Below are positions 3,302 through 13,870 of a DNA stretch of 16,767 nucleotides, one piece after another. Position 1 is the first letter of the stretch. Each line of letters begins with the position of its first letter. Source of the stretch: Bacteroidia bacterium (GTDB lineage Bacteria; Bacteroidota; Bacteroidia; Bacteroidales; UBA12481). Under the pieces are notes generated by a model. It saw nothing but the letters and a program-made list of their open reading frames with translations. It made no database searches and had not been told where the DNA came from. Position numbers and translations under genes: made by a program. Where the stretch lies: the NCBI GenBank assembly GCA_026391235.1, contig JAPLDV010000141.1:1-16767 (forward strand). The letters are read 5' to 3'.

Positions 3302-5755
3302 TCAGAAGAGGCCGGTGACGAAATAACCCAATCTCGCCACTATCCAGGCCAGAAACGTCATGTAGCCTACCATCAAAGCGGACCATTTCCATTTGCCCGA
3401 TTCCCGCCGGATCGCTGCAAGCACCGCAATACACGGAACATAGATCAGAACAAATAACATGAATGCCAGTCCTGCGCGGAGGGTAAATACGTCTTGACCT
3501 TTGAGCCTGCCTTCGGCATGTTTTGATTTCATCATCCGGACCTGTAGGGATGTGCCAGTATCCCCGTCTTGGTATAAAACCCCTATGGTGCTTACAACCA
3601 CCTCTTTAGCAGCAATCCCAGATAAAACGGCAACCGACATTTTCCAGTCGAACCCCAGTGGAGCCAGAACCGGTTGAACAGCATGGCCTATATGTCCTAT
3701 CGCGGAATTCTCTAACTGAACAGTTTTATTCTCGGAGGTTCTCGGGAAGTAGCCCAATGCCCATATTATCATCGAGGCTATTAGAATAACTCCTCCCATT
3801 TTCTTCAAGTACAGACGGCTCCTGAACCACATGTGTTTCACGATGGCATTGGTCCGGGGCCGCCGGTAAGGCGGTAATTCCATTACAAATGGCGCTTCTT
3901 TATTACGGAAAAGGGTGTTCCTGAAAATCAAAGCCATCAGAATGGATAATACAATTCCGACCAGGTAGAGCCCGAAAATCACGTTCGCTGCCTGTCTTGG
4001 AAAAATCACCCCGGCAATCAGAATGTAAACCGTTAAACGGGCACTGCACGACATCAGAGGAACAATCAGCATCGTCATGAGCCGGTCGCTCCGGTTTTCA
4101 ATGGTCCGGGTGGCCATTATTGCCGGAACATTGCATCCGAAGCCCATGATCAGCGGTATAAAGGACTTCCCGTGGAGGCCGATCAGATGCATCAGCTTAT
4201 CCATTATGAAAGCAACCCGCGCCATATAGCCGGTATCTTCCATAAATGAAATAAAGAAGAAGAGAATCAGAATGTTAGGAAGAAATATTATTACTCCGCC
4301 AACACCACCTATTATTCCGTCGATCAGTAAATCCCTCAGAATTCCAGTTGGAAGAACCAGGTGAAGCCATCCCGAAAGTGCATGAACGGCGGCTTCAATT
4401 CCATGAACCGGGTATTTGCCCAGGTTAAAGGTCGATTGAAACATGATCCACAAAAACAGGAGGAAAATCGGAAAACCCAACCATTTGTGCGTCAGGATGT
4501 CATCAATCCTGGATGCGGCGGTTTTCAGTTCCTCTGCGCTTACTTTCTTTTTAAATGTTTCACGCAAGGCACCGGTGATAAAACCATATCTGGAACTGGT
4601 TAGAAGGCTTTCCACATCCTGCTTGTAAAAGTTTTCAATCCGCGCGATTTCCCTATTGGCCAATTCCGTATGTTCCTCTGTAGCCGTTATCCCGTCTACC
4701 GATTTCATAACCTCCGGATTGTGCTCCAGTAACTTTATCGCCAGAAACCGGCTGGAGAATCGGTCAGAGAAGCCAGGTGAATCCCATATTTTATTCTGGA
4801 TTCTTTTTATACTAATCTCTATTTCACGATCATACGGAATGTGAATATGGCGCGTAATCTTGTCCCTTCCTTCCACAACCTCAACAACTTTCCGGAACAG
4901 CTGATCAATACCGGTCCCTTTAATTCCAACAGTAGGTACCACCGGGATTCCCAGCATTTTACCGAGAAGCTCATGATCAAGTTTGTCGCCTTTTTGCTCC
5001 AGTTCGTCATACATATTGAGTGCGATCACTACAGGGATATCCATATCGATCAATTGCGAGGTCAGATAAAGATTTCGCTCGATATTCGAGGCATCTATCA
5101 CATTAATGACTACATCAGGATGTTCAAGTAATAATTGATCACGGACAAATAATTCATCTGGACTGTAGGTACTGAGGGAATAGGTGCCTGGAAGGTCCGT
5201 TAGTTGGAAAGTATGGTTATCCAACTGTAATTCAGCTATTTTAGAATCAACGGTCACGCCTGGGTAATTTCCTGTATGCTCACGTGAGTGGCTGGCCAGG
5301 TTGAAAATCGATGTTTTGCCGCAATTGGGGTTGCCGACGAGGGCGACTTCGATGGTTCCGAAGACGGGTACCACTCCGCTTACCACGACACCCTTTTCTG
5401 CCATCCCCGCGAAAGCGGGAACCCTTTCGCTAACAACGGCACTCAAATCGGGCGCACCCGTTCCAGCTTTCGTATAGCGTGATGGGGCCTCCGCCGGGGT
5501 GACAATTGATCCGGCCAAGCTTGTTTCAGTACTTGCCGGCACTATTACTATCAGCTCAGCTTCCGAGCGTCGTAAGGAAACATAACATCCAAGTATCTGA
5601 TATTCAATGGGATTTTGTAGGGGAGCTGATTTAATGACCGTTACTTCTTTTCCATGAATAAAACCCATATCCATGATCCGCCGTCGAAACACACCTCGGC
5701 CTTTCACTTTGGTGATAATGCCCTTCTGACCTGTTTGTAGTTCCGCTAATGTCAT
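3302..5755 (-). CDS. feoB: Fused FeoA-FeoB ferrous iron transporter
   Basis: Inner-membrane Fe(II) importer with FeoA fused in front of FeoB, a common arrangement in Bacteroidota. From the ATG at 5755 it is 817 residues. FeoA (SH3-like) spans about 1-72; a linker spans about 73-132; the G domain follows with G1 GNPNCGKTS (141-149), a G2 threonine in YPGVT, G3 DLPG (187-190) and G4 NMYD (247-250). The membrane part carries the two Gate regions: the first with GCNVPA and MSCSAR, the second with AAKEVVVSTIGVLY. An in-frame TTG at 5767 is rejected because it falls inside the predicted -7 element. Part of the linker is encoded by palindromic repeats (5406-5419 and 5468-5506). The gene is divergent from an iron-complex ABC operon, so the two are probably co-regulated by iron. 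The usual proline in MSCSARLP is threonine here. Confidence 0.97.
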   Translation of the reverse strand: MTLAELQTGQKGIITKVKGRGVFRRRIMDMGFIHGKEVTVIKSAPLQNPIEYQILGCYVSLRRSEAELIVIVPASTETSLAGSIVTPAEAPSRYTKAGTGAPDLSAVVSERVPAFAGMAEKGVVVSGVVPVFGTIEVALVGNPNCGKTSIFNLASHSREHTGNYPGVTVDSKIAELQLDNHTFQLTDLPGTYSLSTYSPDELFVRDQLLLEHPDVVINVIDASNIERNLYLTSQLIDMDIPVVIALNMYDELEQKGDKLDHELLGKMLGIPVVPTVGIKGTGIDQLFRKVVEVVEGRDKITRHIHIPYDREIEISIKRIQNKIWDSPGFSDRFSSRFLAIKLLEHNPEVMKSVDGITATEEHTELANREIARIENFYKQDVESLLTSSRYGFITGALRETFKKKVSAEELKTAASRIDDILTHKWLGFPIFLLFLWIMFQSTFNLGKYPVHGIEAAVHALSGWLHLVLPTGILRDLLIDGIIGGVGGVIIFLPNILILFFFISFMEDTGYMARVAFIMDKLMHLIGLHGKSFIPLIMGFGCNVPAIMATRTIENRSDRLMTMLIVPLMSCSARLTVYILIAGVIFPRQAANVIFGLYLVGIVLSILMALIFRNTLFRNKEAPFVMELPPYRRPRTNAIVKHMWFRSRLYLKKMGGVILIASMIIWALGYFPRTSENKTVQLENSAIGHIGHAVQPVLAPLGFDWKMSVAVLSGIAAKEVVVSTIGVLYQDGDTGTSLQVRMMKSKHAEGRLKGQDVFTLRAGLAFMLFVLIYVPCIAVLAAIRRESGKWKWSALMVGYMTFLAWIVARLGYFVTGLF
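5406..5419. repeat. Short REP-like palindrome inside the feoAB linker
   Basis: CCCGC (5406-5410) and GCGGG (5415-5419) form a stem around a GAAA loop. The sequence resembles widespread bacterial palindromes of the type CCCGCGAAAGCGGG. Read on the feoAB strand it encodes VPAFAGM (residues 112-118), a peptide often produced when such palindromes fall in a reading frame. It is a different type from the 45-bp unit nearby. Confidence 0.6.
5468..5506 (+). repeat. REP-like repeat copy 3, translated within the feoAB linker
   Basis: This 39-bp copy begins TTTCGTATAGCG and ends GCCGGGGTGACAAT. It matches the two 45-bp tandem units at 5856-5945 at both ends but lacks 6 bp in the hairpin centre, so the stem is eroded. 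It lies in the same plus-strand orientation as those units, and feoAB reads it from the opposite strand as IVTPAEAPSRYTK (residues 84-96). Both 45 and 39 are multiples of three, so the frame is preserved. Confidence 0.75.
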
Positions 5756-5764
5756 AATCGGTGA

Positions 5765-5772
5765 CAAAGATA
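5765..5772 (-). promoter_or_regulatory. -7 promoter element of feoAB
   Basis: On the minus strand the sequence reads TATCTTTG, a perfect match to the Bacteroidota -7 consensus TAnnTTTG. A start of transcription a few bases downstream (about 5759-5761) would leave a leader of only about 4-6 nt before the ATG at 5755, so the mRNA would be almost leaderless. No clear TTG -33 element is visible; the TTAGAA/TTCTAA dyad occupies that region. Confidence 0.55.
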
Positions 5773-5786
5773 TCCTTTTTTGTTAT

Positions 5787-5801
5787 TTAGAATGATTCTA
5801 A
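5787..5801. promoter_or_regulatory. Candidate metal-responsive operator (dyad 1)
   Basis: TTAGAA (5787-5792) and TTCTAA (5796-5801) form a perfect 6-bp dyad with the spacer TGA. It lies just upstream of the feoAB -7 element, around the expected -33 region, between two divergent iron-uptake units. The position and symmetry fit a repressor of the Fur or DtxR/MntR type; the regulator is not identifiable from sequence alone. Confidence 0.5.
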
Positions 5802-5806
5802 GTAAT

Positions 5807-5827
5807 GATAATATCCGAAGCATTATC
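5807..5827. promoter_or_regulatory. Candidate Fur-like operator (dyad 2) at the SBP operon side
   Basis: GATAAT (5807-5812) and ATTATC (5822-5827) form an inverted repeat with a 9-bp spacer. The arms are identical to the hexamers of the classical Fur box, but the spacing is not that of the canonical 19-bp box. TATCTTCG (5824-5831), one mismatch from the -7 consensus TAnnTTTG, overlaps the right arm and is a possible promoter for the binding-protein operon. Confidence 0.4.
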
Positions 5828-5849
5828 TTCGTGACTTAATTAGGGCTTA

Positions 5850-7109
5850 ATGAGATTTCGTACAGCGTCAGGGGGCCCCGGCTTTCGCCGGGGTGACAAC
5901 TTTCGTACAGCGTCGGGGGGGCCCGGCCTTCGCCGGGGTGACAAGTGCTCTGTGCAGGGTTTAGTAGTTATGATGCTGTTATTTGCCGGATGTCAGGGGA
6001 ACCTGAAGGAGAAGCAGGTGCAGAAGATCGCGGTTATCGGCCAGGAAATCCAGGCTACGGATACCGCAATTTTGTCAGTCAGGTACGCAAAGGGTTTCCG
6101 GTTCGAAAAGAATGAGGCGGGTACGCTTTTGATTTTATCTGATCCGTTAAAAGCCGGCCAGGAGATTGCACGGTACCGCCTCATGCATTCAAAATCCGCG
6201 ATCAGTCCCATAAATGGTTATACTGATCTGGTTGTTCCCTTAAATCGTTTGGTGGCTTCTTCAACCACTCACGCAGGATTCCTGTCAGCCATCGGATCAG
6301 GTGACCAACTGATGGGTTGCAATAATCCAGAACGATTATATGATACTTTGCTGTTCAATCGATATCTGAAAGGTGGGTTGGTGAGAATGGGGCGCGATCT
6401 GGAGTATAACCTGGAATACCTGATAGCCAGTAAGCCCAATCTGGTTTTGCAAACGGGTATCGACGGGCAGTTCAACCCCGATGCAAGGTTGGCAGGGATG
6501 GGCATTCCGGTGATGTATGTACTGGAATGGATGGAATCCACTCCACTCGGGCGGGCTGAATGGATCAAGGTTTTCGGCCTGATTACCGGTAAATCCAGAG
6601 AGGCAGATTCTCTTTTTGATGTGATCGAAAAGAATTACATGGTCAATGCTAAACTTGGCCGTGAAGCTCCGGAAAAGATAAAAGTACTGACAGGAAATGT
6701 GTTTAAAGGAACCTGGTACATGCCGGGAGGGAAAAATTATATGACTCGTTTTTTTGAGGATGCCGGCATGGATTATATTTATAAGAATACAGACCAATCG
6801 GGAAGTTTGGCGCTGAGCTTCGAATCAGTTGTGTATCAATTGGCTGATGCATCGGTATGGATCAGCGTGAATGTGGATTCACTTTCAGAGTTAAAAGCTG
6901 CGTATGAACGCTATTCTTCTTTTAAGGCAGTTAAGGACCATCGGGTATTCAGCGTATTTAACCGCGTTAATTCCCATGGGGGGAATGATTTCTGGGAGAG
7001 TGCCGTTGTACGGCCCGATATGGTTTTAGCTGATTTATTGGCTATTGCCCACCCGGAATTAATTCCGGGTCATATCTGGAATTATTATAAACCTCTGGTA
7101 TTTAATTAG
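5850..7109 (+). CDS. Iron-complex ABC transporter substrate-binding lipoprotein (FecB/BtuF type)
   Basis: Periplasmic binding protein (PF01497-like, two-lobed TroA fold) that would deliver a siderophore, heme or cobalamin-like ligand to the permease encoded next. From the ATG at 5850 it has 419 residues. Residues 3-32 are two tandem 15-residue units (FRTASGGPGFRRGDN, FRTASGGPGLRRGDK) encoded by REP-like DNA; then comes a hydrophobic stretch ending in the lipobox LLFAGC (Cys codon 5991-5993). Removing the 90-bp repeat leaves MR-CSVQGLVVMMLLFAGC, a normal lipoprotein signal, so the repeat seems inserted near the start of the signal peptide. Alternative starts (GTG 5952, ATG 5970) give signal peptides that are short and uncharged. 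LVVPLNRLVASSTTH and YLIASKPNLVL are typical of the family. The FecCD gene follows after 4 bp. The true ligand is unknown; iron context favours a siderophore or heme. Confidence 0.88.
   Translation: MRFRTASGGPGFRRGDNFRTASGGPGLRRGDKCSVQGLVVMMLLFAGCQGNLKEKQVQKIAVIGQEIQATDTAILSVRYAKGFRFEKNEAGTLLILSDPLKAGQEIARYRLMHSKSAISPINGYTDLVVPLNRLVASSTTHAGFLSAIGSGDQLMGCNNPERLYDTLLFNRYLKGGLVRMGRDLEYNLEYLIASKPNLVLQTGIDGQFNPDARLAGMGIPVMYVLEWMESTPLGRAEWIKVFGLITGKSREADSLFDVIEKNYMVNAKLGREAPEKIKVLTGNVFKGTWYMPGGKNYMTRFFEDAGMDYIYKNTDQSGSLALSFESVVYQLADASVWISVNVDSLSELKAAYERYSSFKAVKDHRVFSVFNRVNSHGGNDFWESAVVRPDMVLADLLAIAHPELIPGHIWNYYKPLVFN
5856..5945 (+). repeat. Tandem pair of 45-bp REP-like palindromic units
   Basis: Units 5856-5900 and 5901-5945 are nearly identical, each starting TTTCGTACAGCGTC and ending CGCCGGGGTGACAA plus one base. 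Each holds a hairpin: CCCCGGC (5876-5882) with GCCGGGG (5887-5893) around TTTC in unit 1, and CCCGGC (5922-5927) with GCCGGG (5932-5937) around CTTC in unit 2. The 45-bp period equals 15 codons and keeps the frame of the binding-protein gene open. The direct tandem arrangement and the related copy at 5468-5506 show that this is a repeat family and not chance. Confidence 0.9.
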
Positions 7110-8157: not shown

Positions 8158-8987
8158 GCCAGCCAGAAACAAATAACATTGTTTTGGAATCGCATGATCT
8201 GGCGATCGGTTACCCGTATCCAGGAAGCTTACCATTGATTTTGGCCCGGAATCTTCATCTTACCATTCAACGCGGTCAGGTAACAGGTCTTTTGGGGCCC
8301 AACGGATCGGGCAAATCGACTCTTTTACGAACGCTGGCGGGATTGCAGCCGACGATATCCGGATCGGTAAAAGTGATGGGCCAAACGATCCGGAGCAACC
8401 AGGTCAGACTAACGGCCCGGATGCTCAGTGTGGTTCTGACTGATCGGATCGATGTAAGGAATCTTACTGTATTTCAGCTGGTTTCAATGGGCAGATATCC
8501 CTACACCGACTGGCTGGGCCGCGCCGGCACCAATGATGATGAACGGATCAAAACCGCCCTGGAACAAGTAAGGCTCCGGGATTATTCCAACCGTTTTTTT
8601 AATGAGCTGAGCGATGGAGAGCAGCAGAGAACCCTGCTGGCGAAAGCGCTCGTGCAGGATACACCCCTGATTATTCTGGATGAACCAACGGCCCACCTCG
8701 ATCTCCCCAACCGTATATCGATCATGCGGTTATTGCGCAACCTGGCCGACGAAACCGGAAAAAGCATACTTTTTTCCACGCACGACCTGGATCTGGCCAT
8801 CCATACCGCCGATGAGCTATGGCTGCTGCAGAAGGGTGGGGTGCTGCTGAGAGGCAGGCCTGCAGAACTGATGGCAGGTGATGCTTTTGAAGACACCTTC
8901 AGAACAGGTACAGATGATGCTGATCTGAATATCATTTCTGACTATTTTCGCAGTCTGAAGAAGCGGTCGGGGGAAATTCATGGTTAG
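8154..8987 (+). CDS. Iron-complex ABC transporter ATP-binding protein (FecE/BtuD type)
   Basis: Cytoplasmic ATPase subunit, 277 residues from the ATG at 8154, which overlaps the permease stop by four bases (ATGA). The frame is open further upstream, but only inside the permease gene, so that part is ignored. Walker A is GPNGSGKST, the ABC signature is LSDGEQQR (Asp at the third position in place of the usual Gly), Walker B is LIILDEPTAHLD, and the H-loop is STHD. The Q-loop region reads SVVLTDRIDV, without the usual glutamine; this is frequent in the FecE/BtuD branch but worth noting. It completes a binding protein, permease and ATPase set opposite feoAB. Confidence 0.96.
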   Translation: MSQPETNNIVLESHDLAIGYPYPGSLPLILARNLHLTIQRGQVTGLLGPNGSGKSTLLRTLAGLQPTISGSVKVMGQTIRSNQVRLTARMLSVVLTDRIDVRNLTVFQLVSMGRYPYTDWLGRAGTNDDERIKTALEQVRLRDYSNRFFNELSDGEQQRTLLAKALVQDTPLIILDEPTAHLDLPNRISIMRLLRNLADETGKSILFSTHDLDLAIHTADELWLLQKGGVLLRGRPAELMAGDAFEDTFRTGTDDADLNIISDYFRSLKKRSGEIHG

Positions 8988-9076
8988 CGAAGGGATGACA
9001 GAAAAGGGTGAGAAATTTGTTGAGTTTTGCGTTATAGTTAAGTCATTGGGAGAATTTATCTCATTACAAAGAAATC

Positions 9077-10051
9077 ATGAAAGATTCGTGGGTAAAAAAG
9101 GGATTCATTGATGAACCGGTCGACAACCAAATCAATTTGGTCGATGGTATCAGGGAACTCCTCAAGGAAAAGAATGCGGTTATCCTGGCTCATTATTACC
9201 AAAATTCTGATATACAGGATATTGCAGATTTCGTGGGTGATAGCTTAGATTTATCCCGAAAGGCAGCCGAGACCAATGCCGACCTGATTGTTTTTGCCGG
9301 GGTTCATTTTATGGCTGAAACGGCTAAAATTCTTTCACCCGGGAAAAAGGTGCTGATACCCGATCAGATGGCCGGTTGCTCACTGGCTGATTCCTGCCCT
9401 CCTGATGAATTTTTAGCTTTCAGAAACGAACATCCTGGCCACATGGTGGTTACTTATGTCAACACCAGCGCTGCCATCAAGGCTTTATCCGATGTTTGCT
9501 GCACCTCGACAAATGCCGTGCAGATCATTCAACATATTCCGGAAGATCAGAAGATTATTTTTGCCCCGGACAGGAATCTGGGAAATTATCTGAACAGCCT
9601 GACCGGAAGGGAGATGCTGGTTTGGGATGGTGCCTGCCATGTGCATGAGGAGTTTTCACTGGAGCAGATACTGCTGCTCAAGAATGAATACCCTAAAGCC
9701 AAGATCATTTGCCATCCGGAGTGCACGAAACCGATCCGGATTGTTTCAGATTTTATAGGCTCAACATCGGCCTTGCTGAGTTTTTCAAAAAGCGATAGCA
9801 GTGATACTTATATCGTTGCAACTGAGTCCGGTATCCTTCACCAGATGAAAAAGGCCAATCCGGATAAATTATTTATTCCCGCACCGCCAAAGGACAGCAC
9901 CTGCGCCTGCAACGACTGCAAGTTCATGAAGTTGCATAATCTGAAGAAAATTTTTCTCACTTTAAAACATGAATGGCCGGAAGTAACGGTTCCTGAGGGT
10001 ATTCGAAAACTGGCGGAGATTCCGATCAGGCGGATGCTGGAGTGGTCGTGA
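9077..10051 (+). CDS. nadA: Quinolinate synthase NadA
   Basis: Condenses iminoaspartate with dihydroxyacetone phosphate to quinolinate in de novo NAD synthesis; a [4Fe-4S] enzyme of the cytoplasm. The 324-residue length is normal. Visible motifs are AHYYQNSDIQDIADFVGDSL (residues 38-57), the cluster cysteine in DQMAGC (Cys101), Cys187 in WDGACHVHEE, and a third cysteine in the C-terminal CACNDC group (Cys276/278/281); CHPEC (residues 212-216) is the substrate-side motif. The partners nadB and nadC are not next to it in this window. The ATG at 9077 lies about 90 bp after the ATPase gene; no terminator is evident between them, so weak read-through from the ABC operon is possible. Confidence 0.97.
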   Translation: MKDSWVKKGFIDEPVDNQINLVDGIRELLKEKNAVILAHYYQNSDIQDIADFVGDSLDLSRKAAETNADLIVFAGVHFMAETAKILSPGKKVLIPDQMAGCSLADSCPPDEFLAFRNEHPGHMVVTYVNTSAAIKALSDVCCTSTNAVQIIQHIPEDQKIIFAPDRNLGNYLNSLTGREMLVWDGACHVHEEFSLEQILLLKNEYPKAKIICHPECTKPIRIVSDFIGSTSALLSFSKSDSSDTYIVATESGILHQMKKANPDKLFIPAPPKDSTCACNDCKFMKLHNLKKIFLTLKHEWPEVTVPEGIRKLAEIPIRRMLEWS

Positions 10052-10160
10052 TTTTCGTACCTTTATTTTCGTTATTTCTAGTTAACAATAGATTTTCCAG
10101 GGATGCAAATGTGACCTAAGGTGCCTATTGTGGTTGATCTTTTCATTAATTAGGACAATC

Positions 10161-13100
10161 ATGAAAACAAAACTCTTTCTTTACGTTATTCTCAACCTTC
10201 TTCTCGCTCTTAACGCTTCTCTTCCTGCCCAGAAAACCTCAAGGGCTAAGGTTCTTCCGCCCGGCTATCCCGACCGCTCTGCGAACCTCGATGTTTATCC
10301 GGGTTTTAAGAATCCGCCGGCCGGATACGGCGAAGTTAGCTTCTACTGGTGGCTGGGCGATACCCTGACCAAAGAGCGGATTATCTGGCAGCTCGATCAG
10401 CTGGCAGGTAAAAGCATTACCGGCCTTCAGGTGAATTATGCCCACAGCGATGAGGGTGGCAATATCTGGGACTGACTTATCGAAGTCAGCCGGGTCTCTT
10501 TACCAAAGCCTGGTGGGACCTGTTTGCCTGGTTCCTCCAGGAGGCCAAAAAGCGGAAAATGTCTGTCAGCCTGAGCGATTATACCCTCGGAATTGCGGGT
10601 CAGGGCTGGTTCGTAGACGACATGCTAAAAGAAAATCCCGGTTTATACGGATCAAAACTCAAGTCGCGTGGTTATGACATCAGGCCCGGCCTGGATACTC
10701 TTATTGAACTTCCTGATAATCTGCTGGATGCAATCATTTATCGTTTTGATAATAAAGCGATCGTACCGGGTTCAGGGGAGAAGCTGACCGCGATCGAAGG
10801 CAACAAACTGAAGATTAAACCGACAACCGACAACCGACAACTTTTTTTGGTTTACTCCGAAACGGTAAAAACTTCTTTCGATCCGATGAATCCCTTAAGC
10901 GGTAAAAAGGTGATCGAGAAGTTCTTCCAGCCTTTCGAGGAGCATTGTCCGGGTGAGGCTGGCAAGGGCCTTAATTTCTTTTTCTCTGATGAGCTTAATT
11001 TCGGGATCAGCGGATTGCTCTGGAACAGCCGGTTTGCCTTTGAATTCAAGAAGAGGAAAGGATACGATATTGTACCGGAGCTCAGCGGGCTGTTCATGGA
11101 TATTGGTCCGCGGACGCCCAAGATCCGGATGGATTTCAACGATGTGCTGGTTACCCTGAGTGAGGAAAGCTTTTTCATACCGATCTACAACTGGCATACC
11201 GACAGGGGAATGCTCTATGGTTGCGATCATGGCGGCAGGGGCCTGGATGTGACCGAATTCGGCGACTATTTCCGGGCACAAAGATGGATGTCAGGGCCCG
11301 GCTGCGACCAGCCTAATCTCGACCGGAATATCAATAAAAATAAGGTAGCCAGCTCGATATCCCATCTTTACGAGCGTCCGCGCACCTGGCTCGAAGGCTA
11401 TCACAGCAGTGGCTGGGGCACCAGCAGTGCCCAGGTGGCCGATGCAACGTTTGCCAATTTTGCAATGGGACAGAACCTGCTGAGCCTGCACGGACTCTAT
11501 TATTCCACACATGGCGGGTGGTGGGAGTGGGCCCCGCCGGATAATCATTTCCGTCAGCCTTACTGGGCGAATATGGGTGATTTCCTGAAATGCTCCGAGA
11601 GGCTGAGTTATTTGCTGAGCCAGGGATACCACCGCTGTGATGTGGCTATCCTCTACCCGGTTGCCCCCAAGGAGGCCGGTATGAACGGAGATGAAGCGGT
11701 TGCCACCGCATTTACCACCGGGAAACAGCTCTATACCTCCGGTATCGATTTCGACTTTATCGATTTTGAATCTTTGACCCGGGCGAAGATTAAAGATGGT
11801 GAATTGCAGGTGAGCGGAGAGATTTATAAAGTCCTGATTTTGCCTGCGATGACTGCTATTCGTTATTCAACGCTGGAAAAGGCCCGCGACTTTTTTCAGG
11901 CCGGTGGCATCGTGATAGCGATCGGTGCTCTTCCTGAAGCCAGTGAGCGTATTGGACGCGATGACCCGGAAATCCGGACGATGGTCAGAAAGATATTCGG
12001 AATAGCTGCTGCGGAAGCAGATGGCAGGGGCCGGCTCGTAAATGAAATGCCTCAAAACAAAGGCATCGGCATCTATCTGGAAAATCCCGATATGATTTCA
12101 GTTGAGATTGGCCGGGTTGTAACGCCTGATTTTAAAGTGATAACCGCAGGCTCTAAACCCTATATTCTGCACCGAAAAATCGGAAAGCGTGATGTATATT
12201 ACGTTTATGGCATACCGAAAGACACAGCCTGTTACTTCCGTTGCCCCGGCAAAGTGGAACTTTGGGATCCCTGGACCGGTACATCAAAGGATTTGCCTGT
12301 TCTTTTTGCAGATGACATCGGTACCCGTTTGAGAATGCCGCTCAGTGAAACTGAACCGCAGCTGATCGTGTTTACACCAGGTGAACCTGCGTTTGCCACA
12401 GATGACGAAACCGTTGCCGCCAAAGGGGAGACCCTGTTGGTTGGGGATTGGGAATTTGAACTGAAACCAACTCTGGATAACAGGTGGGGGGATTACCGGC
12501 AGCCTGCATATCCGGGTTTTGTGGCAACTGATGCCAATGTTATCCGCTACAAGCAGGAAACCTCCCCGGATCCGGGATGGCAGGCTGCCGGTCTGAATGA
12601 CAGCAAATGGGATACGGTTCAGGCGTCGTATGGACCGCAATTCTGGAAACTGGGACCATTGCCCGGAGGAACAGATTCACTTTTACTGGAATCAAAGCTT
12701 TCTGTACTGAAATCTGTTGATCCTGCTGTACCTGTTGAAGTGGCAGGCAAGCGGTATTATTGGTCGTCCTATGAATTCTCGTGGCGATGGGGGCTAAAAG
12801 GAAATCCGGGCAGGCAAGGCTATCACGGATTGAAGGAGTGGGTTCATGATGATATTTTCCAGTTCGGGAACGCCGTGAGAGATTGGCCCGGTGTGCCAAG
12901 GCCCCGTATCGTGGCTGAAAAAGAGGGTACAACCTATTTTCTTTGGTCAACAATTGTTTCCGGTCAGGATCAGGCAGCAAAACTGGTGAAAGGAGGAATC
13001 GATCCGACAGGTATCTGGTTGAATGGCAAAACGGTGAATATATCTTCAACAGATGTCAACCTGAAGCAGGGAAGCAATCCGGTTCTCCTGAGATATACAG

Positions 13101-13870
13101 CTCCGGGCACAGGCTACCTGATATTTGAAAAAAGCGGGATCATTTCCGGATGGAAACAAACAATTCCATTAGCCACAAACTGGTATGCCAATCCAGCTGT
13201 GTTGCCCTATGATCTGGCTCCGGGGGGATCAAAACAAGCCGGATGGTATAGGTTTAAAGCACCTCCCGGTCTTCAATCCATTGAACTTGCCATGAGCAGG
13301 AAACCTCAGGTCTGGGTTAACGGAAGGGAGATTCCGGTTAAGAGTTATATGCAGATGCCCGGTTTGTTTGCCGATTCATTGGTGCCGGCCTGGAAAGCCG
13401 ATCTTACTGCTTCTGCTACTGCTTCTGCAACTGTTGCTTTACGGATACGAATGGAGCCTGGCTTTTATGCTGGTGCCGCTTGTCCCGAATTCATCCGGCT
13501 GAATTGTGGGAAAGGTGTGATTCGTTTGAGCAATTTATGTGATAATGAAGGTCTTATGACTTATTCCGGGGGGATGTGGTATCGTAAAACAATTGTATTG
13601 ACACAAAGTCAGGCCGGTTTCTCAAAGATAACACTCGATCTCGGTGAGCTGGTTTCCTCGGCCGAAGTAATCATCAATGGAAAACCCGCCGGAAAACGTC
13701 TTTCTCCACCCTGGAAGTTCGATCTCACCGGTAAGGTAAAACCAGGCGAAAACCGGCTCGAAATACTGATATATAATACTTTGGGGAACTACTATCTTAC
13801 GACACCCAGCAAGTACGTTGGCTCAACGAAATCAGGGATGATGGGGCCTGTTAAGCTGTTGATGGAGTGA
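10161..13870 (+). CDS. Large secreted glycoside hydrolase (GH2/GH106-like), frameshifted near the N-terminus
   Basis: Secreted carbohydrate-active enzyme of about 1236 residues. The ATG at 10161 gives a signal peptide (MKTKLFLYVILNLLLALNA...LPAQ) and is preferred to an upstream in-frame ATG at 10128. The N-terminal part (GEVSFYWWLGDTLTKERI, then ITGLQVNYAHSDEGGNIW) resembles GH106 alpha-L-rhamnosidase-like TIM-barrel proteins. The C-terminal part has jelly-roll, GH2-type sugar-binding modules (VWVNGREIPV; the last ends in WKFDLTGKVKPGENRLEIL). The frame stops at 10473-10475 right after NIWD; one extra G in the GGG at 10468-10470 would restore NIWGLTYRSQPGLFTKAWW and join it to the rest, which is open to 13870. 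This is either a sequencing error in a homopolymer or a real frameshift. The substrate is not known; rhamnose-containing glycans are a guess from family resemblance. Confidence 0.82.
10819..10848 (+). repeat. Heptanucleotide tandem repeat plus T7 tract inside the hydrolase gene
   Basis: Three perfect copies of ACCGACA (10819-10839) are followed by AC and then seven Ts (10842-10848). They encode TTDNRQLFL in the current frame. Since seven is not a multiple of three, gain or loss of one unit would shift the frame. Confidence 0.8.

Follow-up and report, generated by a model that had tools for sequence, protein, structure and literature searches.

The binding-protein locus

A gene for a Peripla_BP_2 lipoprotein, an iron-complex/cobalamin-type binding protein, carries two copies of a repetitive extragenic palindrome (REP) directly behind its proposed start codon, where they are very probably translated as part of the signal peptide. 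The gene lies in a stretch of 16,767 nucleotides from a Bacteroidia bacterium of the order Bacteroidales (UBA12481; assembly GCA_026391235.1, contig JAPLDV010000141.1), referred to here as the window. Its product matches the Pfam family Peripla_BP_2 with an E value of 2.2e-17. On its 3' side follow FecCD and then ABC-ATPase genes. The start region and its divergent neighbour contain the following features.

3302-5767, minus strand: feoAB fusion gene (FeoA-FeoB), divergent neighbour of the binding-protein gene
5787-5801, no strand assigned: palindrome TTAGAATGATTCTAA, in the gap that separates the two divergent genes
5824-5831, plus strand: TATCTTCG motif, 18 nt 5' of ATG 5850
5850-7109, plus strand: Peripla_BP_2 lipoprotein gene, proposed start ATG 5850
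5856-5900, plus strand: REP unit 1, translating to FRTASGGPGFRRGDN, with 8/8 stem pairs (GU allowed), loop TTTC and a TGTC tag
5901-5945, plus strand: REP unit 2, translating to FRTASGGPGLRRGDK and adjoining the hydrophobic core, with 7/8 stem pairs
5952-5993, plus strand: hydrophobic core and lipobox LFAGC (core VVMMLLFAGC, Cys codon 5991-5993)

The two 44-nt units (5856-5899 and 5901-5944) stand head to tail with a period of 45 nt, are identical at 41 of 44 bases (93%), have the loops TTTC/CTTC, and are located between codon 2, after ATG 5850, and the hydrophobic core and lipobox. Read from ATG 5850, the N-terminus is MR-FRTASGGPGFRRGDN-FRTASGGPGLRRGDK-CSVQGLVVMMLLFAGC. The open reading frame 5850-7109 thus bears out the initial annotation, which had placed exactly 30 additional in-frame residues between the second codon and the hydrophobic core. 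Its expectation that the insert adds arginines to the n-region was also correct, as the net charge there is +6 with the REPs, +1 without the repeats, and 0 from a start at 5952. Judged by its sequence pattern, the N-terminus has the features of a lipoprotein signal, namely this charged n-region, a hydrophobic core, and a lipobox ending in Cys. The public protein entry for the contig (P0001) starts at ATG 5970 (MMLLFAGC), and so omits the 30 residues.

Orthologous loci were available as DNA from six relatives (L001-L006). The palindrome TTAGAATGATTCTAA, presumably a metal-regulator-box-like element, is also present 5' of the gene in L001, L003, L004 and L006, and differs by one base in L002 and L005 (by eye). 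The motif TATCTTCG, which we take to be similar to the Bacteroidota -7 promoter element, precedes the upstream start by 15-18 nt in all six REP-bearing loci, that is, the window, L001-L004 and L006 (by eye). No RNA or riboswitch from Rfam matched the window at gathering scores, and a scan of 5700-6100 for terminators and sigma-70 promoters, not built for Bacteroidota promoters, retrieved none.

A high-copy REP family

The copy counts come from the genomes of six relatives (G001-G006), which stand in for the window's own genome. With up to two mismatches, the 16-nt core CTTCGCSGGGRTGACA has 186, 50, 101, 138, 238 and 133 matches in G001-G006, compared with 4, 1, 2, 1, 1 and 1 for the reversed-pattern controls. 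This genome-wide copy number rules out a chance GC-rich repeat and agrees with the earlier assignment of the units to a mobile-type palindrome family (50-238 core matches per genome versus 1-4 reversed). The host had been named a probable Bacteroidota, and the named relatives are indeed Bacteroidota. When 60 genomes sampled from the order were searched with a slightly longer core, four of them matched: G001 (162 matches) and G005 (196), both belonging to the family, and two others with one match each. The REP is thus absent or single-copy in the other 58 genomes.

For the anatomy of the repeat we used G001, sampled as 118 pieces that cover 1.92 of its roughly 4.4 Mb; many of the pieces were picked for a REP, so that the REP density of the sample is biased. 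It holds 138 core matches, 136 of them with full context. The TGTC tag is found in 129 of these 136 copies and in both window units, with the qualification that the search pattern itself required TGAC at that end. A complete stem (8/8 pairs, GU allowed) with a 4-nt loop occurs in 100/136 copies, and AT forms the first two stem bases in 122/136; the window copies end GGGGTGACA, without AT. The unpaired tail, CCA in most CGTC-1 REPs, is CCC in 84/136 copies and in the window, and CTC in 20/136. Except for this tail and for the AT pair missing from the window copies, the family resembles CGTC-1. We regard it as a TGTC-tagged relative of CGTC-1 and do not claim strict membership. The family does not fit the RAYT-borne REPs, which have a GTAG tag and flank a Y1 transposase gene, as its tag is TGTC.

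Genes matching Y1_Tnp occur in all six genomes (12 matches). The REP core is present in three of ten Y1 loci, in one of them within 150 nt. These data do not show a Y1 transposase to be the mobiliser, but with a REP near 2 of the 12 matches it may be one. A near-identical core was seen beside a Y1 fragment on contig C102 and, in G001, inside a longer CCACTA...TAGTGG palindrome near a Y1 transposase gene (L037:1940-2010) and a Y1 fragment (L128:2360-2420). A variant of the REP with a GAC/GTC stem has 31 matches in G003, 5 in G004 and 1 in G006 (0-8 across the five genomes other than G003), and the in-gene copies of L003 and L004 belong to it.

In sense orientation the REP has two open frames, one arginine-rich (RGPGLRRDDN-like) and one of small hydrophobic residues (GVPAFAGMT-like), while a TGA closes the third; on the reverse strand no frame is closed (by eye, on the consensus). 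The first frame suits an n-region, and the second suits a linker or the margin of a hydrophobic core.

Start codons and reading frame

The window and L001-L006 were checked for every in-frame ATG, GTG or TTG before the lipobox Cys. L001 has a single such codon, located 5' of the REP. The same situation is found in a second lipoprotein gene, the adaptor of an RND efflux operon: in its G004 copy (L160), whose REP core has two mismatches, the only ATG, GTG or TTG before the Cys is 5' of the REP. In the window, the later starts GTG 5952, ATG 5970 and ATG 5973 would give signals of 13, 7 and 6 residues without any Lys or Arg, and in L003, L004 and L006 the later starts are likewise uncharged only. 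As a point of reference, a pattern search of the G001 sample gave 99 lipoprotein-like ATG starts, and 97 of these have Lys or Arg in the n-region.

The REP reads through in one frame in all six clade orthologues with DNA (window, L001-L004, L006); L005, outside the REP-bearing clade, has no REP at the site. As a control, 91 of the 94 intergenic REPs of the G001 sample were used for a frame test, and only 7 of the 91 are preceded by a start at a distance of 30-105 nt and remain open in the same phase. The six loci are related, and hence are not six independent trials. The single upstream starts of L001 and L160, together with the frame shared by 6/6 loci, indicate that the repeat is very probably translated, as had been suggested for the window. 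The identity of the REPs, their common site and frame, and the lack of another ATG, GTG or TTG in L001 and the G004 adaptor are seen directly in the sequences, whereas translation from ATG 5850 in the window, cleavage of the signal, near-neutrality of the insert and a mobilising enzyme are inferred.

Orthologues of the binding protein

At the protein level, 26 of 35 close proteins (P0002-P0036) have a testable N-terminal part, and 11 of the 26 carry a strict REP-peptide motif there, compared with none in the remaining 8857 residues. Among 84 more distant proteins (P0037-P0120), 34 are testable and none has the motif. Outside the anchor-testable set fall 9/35 close and 50/84 distant proteins. 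The motif was composed after the peptides had been seen, and it misses some degenerate copies.

The initial annotation proposed a recent insertion into an empty site in which MR was directly followed by a CSVQ-like sequence. The orthologues do not support this, as those closest to the window in the tree and complete at the N-terminus (P0003, P0004, L001 and P0002) carry one to three REP peptides; the copy in P0004 is degenerate and was found by eye, unflagged by the motif. P0005, also near, gives no information, since it begins within the hydrophobic core. The nearest relatives thus yielded no empty site, and REP-free orthologues occur farther out in the clade (P0013, P0022, P0030 and P0034, as annotated). 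The site must therefore have held REPs before, with the tandem resembling a local duplication, and the REP-free members mean that gains or losses happened. Nor do the orthologues all share the same 30 residues, since the units differ in both number and sequence. A tandem is also found outside the source organism: P0002 contains three units, spaced by 15 codons as in the window (by eye), and grouped intragenic REPs are among those described in PMC3733652.

Identity between the two window units is 93%, whereas pairs among the 136 REPs of G001 have a median of 68%, and 0.7% of those pairs are as alike. Although the median is from G001 and not from the window's genome, this difference points to a tandem duplication with a 15-codon period. 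Between L001 and P0003 there is a difference of six residues in the first unit, as expected from an in-frame deletion of 18 nt of the core (by eye).

Other repeats were seen at the same site. In L002 (about 2285-2365) a short tandem repeat, GGTTGTAAT, encodes the hydrophobic core VVMVVMVVMVV, and the whole L002 signal peptide looks repeat-derived; P0020 has a similar peptide. The N-terminus of the G005 orthologue (L005, about 9860-9940) is coded by GGTTGAAAT-type tandem repeats and not by REPs.

REPs in other genes

In-frame copies are found in several unrelated genes: the binding protein, the RND adaptor, and the linker of FeoAB. The adaptor of G001 has three REPs before its hydrophobic core. 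With hits of E 1e-100 or better, the adaptor gene was retrieved from five of the six genomes, with 3, 1, 1, 1 and 2 REP cores. The REP motif is present in 18/30 testable adaptor N-termini of close relatives and in 0/60 of distant ones (5/35 close and 25/85 distant proteins lie outside the testable set; close/distant border P0155/P0156). For the FeoAB linker the counts are 10/25 testable close relatives, the window's included, and 0/86 distant ones (outside the set, 3/28 and 6/92; border P0268/P0269). Both borders were fixed after a partial view of the lists, and the counts include the query entries P0121 and P0241. Outside the N-terminal part or linker, the motif was not found in any of the three protein sets.

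At the DNA level, REPs occur in the FeoA-FeoB linker of the window, L001, L003, L004 and L006, and are missing from that of L005; the L002 contig is without FeoAB. Lying between two domains of one open frame, they are hardly in doubt as read-through sequence. In the window the linker holds two copies that face opposite ways (5393-5505), and a remnant lies further downstream.

5393-5437, minus strand: second REP in the linker, core 5399-5417, sense, reading SERVPAFAGMAEKG (outer limits by eye)
5467-5505, plus strand: REP in the linker, core 5486-5504, antisense to feoAB, reading SIVTPAEAPS, with 5/8 stem pairs
About 8979-9009, plus strand: REP remnant with the hairpin core deleted, with which the ABC ATPase gene ends, stop codon included (by eye)

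A similar core-deleted REP was noticed in L001 at about 10008-10030.

Within the 1.92 Mb of G001, 44 of the 138 matches overlap called genes. This is an upper figure from a home-made gene caller, and at least three of the 44 are non-REP and several are start mis-calls. Two further cases were observed in passing. At L087:1218-1320 the signal peptide of a gene that we take to be TolC-like may begin at an ATG inside a REP (GGGGATGGCA), in which case the REP could supply the start codon. At L097:7669, minus strand, a REP lies within a gene, presumably ispG, with coding signal on both flanks.

Proposed explanation and alternatives

We propose, with a probability of roughly 0.82, that a CGTC-1-type REP has been kept in frame after the start codon as the translated n-region of the binding-protein lipoprotein signal. 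According to this proposal, which is built on sequence comparison, a high-copy Bacteroidales REP would have landed just 3' of the start codon, once or more than once in the history of the clade, and would have been retained there in frame as translated sequence. The frame used would yield RGPGLRRGDN/K-like peptides, which may serve as the long arginine-rich n-region of the signal. In lipoproteins all sequence before the Cys is cut off. The REP peptide would thus be absent from the mature protein, its exact sequence and length would matter little, and the insert would cost little. The number of units would shift by in-frame steps, such as the 45-nt duplication in the window and the 18-nt core deletion separating L001 from P0003. 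To us, tolerated DNA with arginines that have come to serve the signal is more plausible than a tuned device.

The REPs could also be a 5' untranslated leader in front of a mis-called start, with the protein beginning at GTG 5952 or at ATG 5970 or 5973. The database gene caller indeed picked ATG 5970 for the window protein, and PMC3733652 cautions that mis-called starts may account for most REPs placed in N-terminal coding regions. L002 has a GTG after the REPs with a charged n-region, so that its REPs could be leader and this locus decides nothing. Three of the five adaptor genes have similarly charged later ATGs, within the REP in L161 and L162 and after the first REP in L163, each followed by one or two Lys or Arg; reading through the REP is forced in L160 only. 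Further points that weigh against a translated n-region are its low net charge in L003 (0), L006 (+1) and L004 (+2), and the lack of excess stability of the start-region RNA compared with shuffles (z -0.88, 45/200 equally stable). Differences by codon position in the n-regions of L003, L004 and L006 (8/3/5, 11/8/6, 8/5/6) show no third-position excess. Selection on the peptide sequence is thus not seen, and purifying selection on the REP peptide was discarded as an explanation. A leader is nonetheless difficult to reconcile with L001 and L160, which have no possible downstream ATG, GTG or TTG, with the exclusively uncharged later starts of the window, L003, L004 and L006, and with the promoter-like motif 15-18 nt 5' of the upstream start and the same frame in 6/6 loci. 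A mere 5' untranslated role of the repeat is therefore unlikely, and the window REP is very probably translated.

Alternatively, the REPs might be kept as RNA or DNA control elements of the iron locus, for example as a start hairpin or a gyrase or protein site, with the open frame as a by-product. The hairpin is maintained while the peptide changes, as L004 and L006 differ on both stem arms, and REPs flank the divergent promoter on both sides. Against this, REPs are also present in the RND adaptor and other genes, the start region has no excess folding stability, and the changes on both arms are equally explained by a swap with other genomic REP variants; they look as if whole REPs had been replaced in this way. 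We consider a control function unlikely. A different question, compatible with translation, is whether the site is a hot spot of repeated independent insertions, or whether one old insertion was followed by losses and copy changes. We examined it on a tree of 49 proteins, which omits P0001, P0029, P0032, P0045, P0049, all entries above P0050, and also P0016 and P0031, both missed by the anchor pattern (P0016 has a REP-like peptide). REP presence and absence requires 13 changes on this tree, at least seven of them forced by supported branches, and a single origin was recovered in none of 200 bootstrap trees. Furthermore, two REP subtypes occur at the site, with parts of both in L001. On the other hand, all flagged rows fall in one clade of 37 proteins (support 100/99), and the label overlooks degenerate copies (P0004, scored 0 in the tree, P0010 and P0012; by eye), which inflates the number of changes and makes decay likely. 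The label is not clearly clustered relative to shuffles (85/500 as low), and 17 of 46 inner branches are open. We consider a hot spot possible but less likely than not.

A wider role may be imagined, in which REPs and other short tandem repeats are a standing source of signal and linker sequence, repeatedly rebuilding several lipoprotein signals, with a unit number that varies as in variable number tandem repeats and could tune translation or export of an iron-uptake lipoprotein. We regard this as rather doubtful, and favour the translated, tolerated n-region described above.

Other genes of the window

Two further genes of the window appear to be split. A prolyl oligopeptidase-like gene (65-2088) extends over two overlapping frames, ending at 1186 and restarting at 1183, and is either a broken gene or an assembly error. 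A GH106-like gene (10128-13870) is apparently split between two frames near 10475-10559.

Comparison with published systems and significance

Four families of CGTC-tagged REPs, including dRS3 of Neisseria and RPE-4 and RPE-6 (Rickettsia palindromic elements), are described in PMC3733652, which also covers intragenic REPs, grouped ones among them, and CGTC repeats in Bacteroidetes. The repeat reported here agrees with the CGTC-1 REPs of that account in its 8-bp stem, 4-nt loop, TGTC form of the tag, and, in most copies but not those of the window, AT stem base, and with CGTC REPs in general in its high copy number, partly intragenic position, Bacteroidetes hosts, and lack of a clear transposase. 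It differs from CGTC-1 in its tail, mostly CCC (84/136) and not CCA, and in a unit of about 45 nt. According to PMC3733652, most N-terminal intragenic REPs may lie outside the gene, as annotation errors; in contrast, the start codons found here point to translation of such copies in two genes.

The closest parallel is in Rickettsia, where, as PMC3733652 relates, in-frame palindromes lie within many proteins, and R. conorii proteins with an N-terminal RPE-1 are expressed in vivo, a precedent for a translated N-terminal palindrome. Unlike these, the REPs described here belong to another phylum, their sites include lipoprotein signal peptides and one domain linker, and they recur across species with a varying copy number. 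In enterobacteria, Y. pestis YPO1552 has RU-2 within its signal peptide, while the signals of related proteins are without it (PMC2759123). RU-2 is a longer repeat, similar to a miniature inverted-repeat transposable element, and the excerpted text of PMC2759123 describes no tandem variation among orthologues. In the open-licence literature we found no report of REP-derived lipoprotein signals in Bacteroidota.

What appears to be new is the evidence, from start codons and shared frames, for translation of N-terminal REPs in two genes of a Bacteroidota clade, together with the apparent recurrence of REPs, from species to species, in signal peptides and a linker. The lack of any other ATG, GTG or TTG start in two genes of two genomes indicates that some N-terminal REPs are read in Bacteroidota. 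Because the public entry for the window protein begins after the repeat, similar cases may be under-counted. The start site is directly testable. The removal of signal peptides would explain why mobile DNA is tolerated there.
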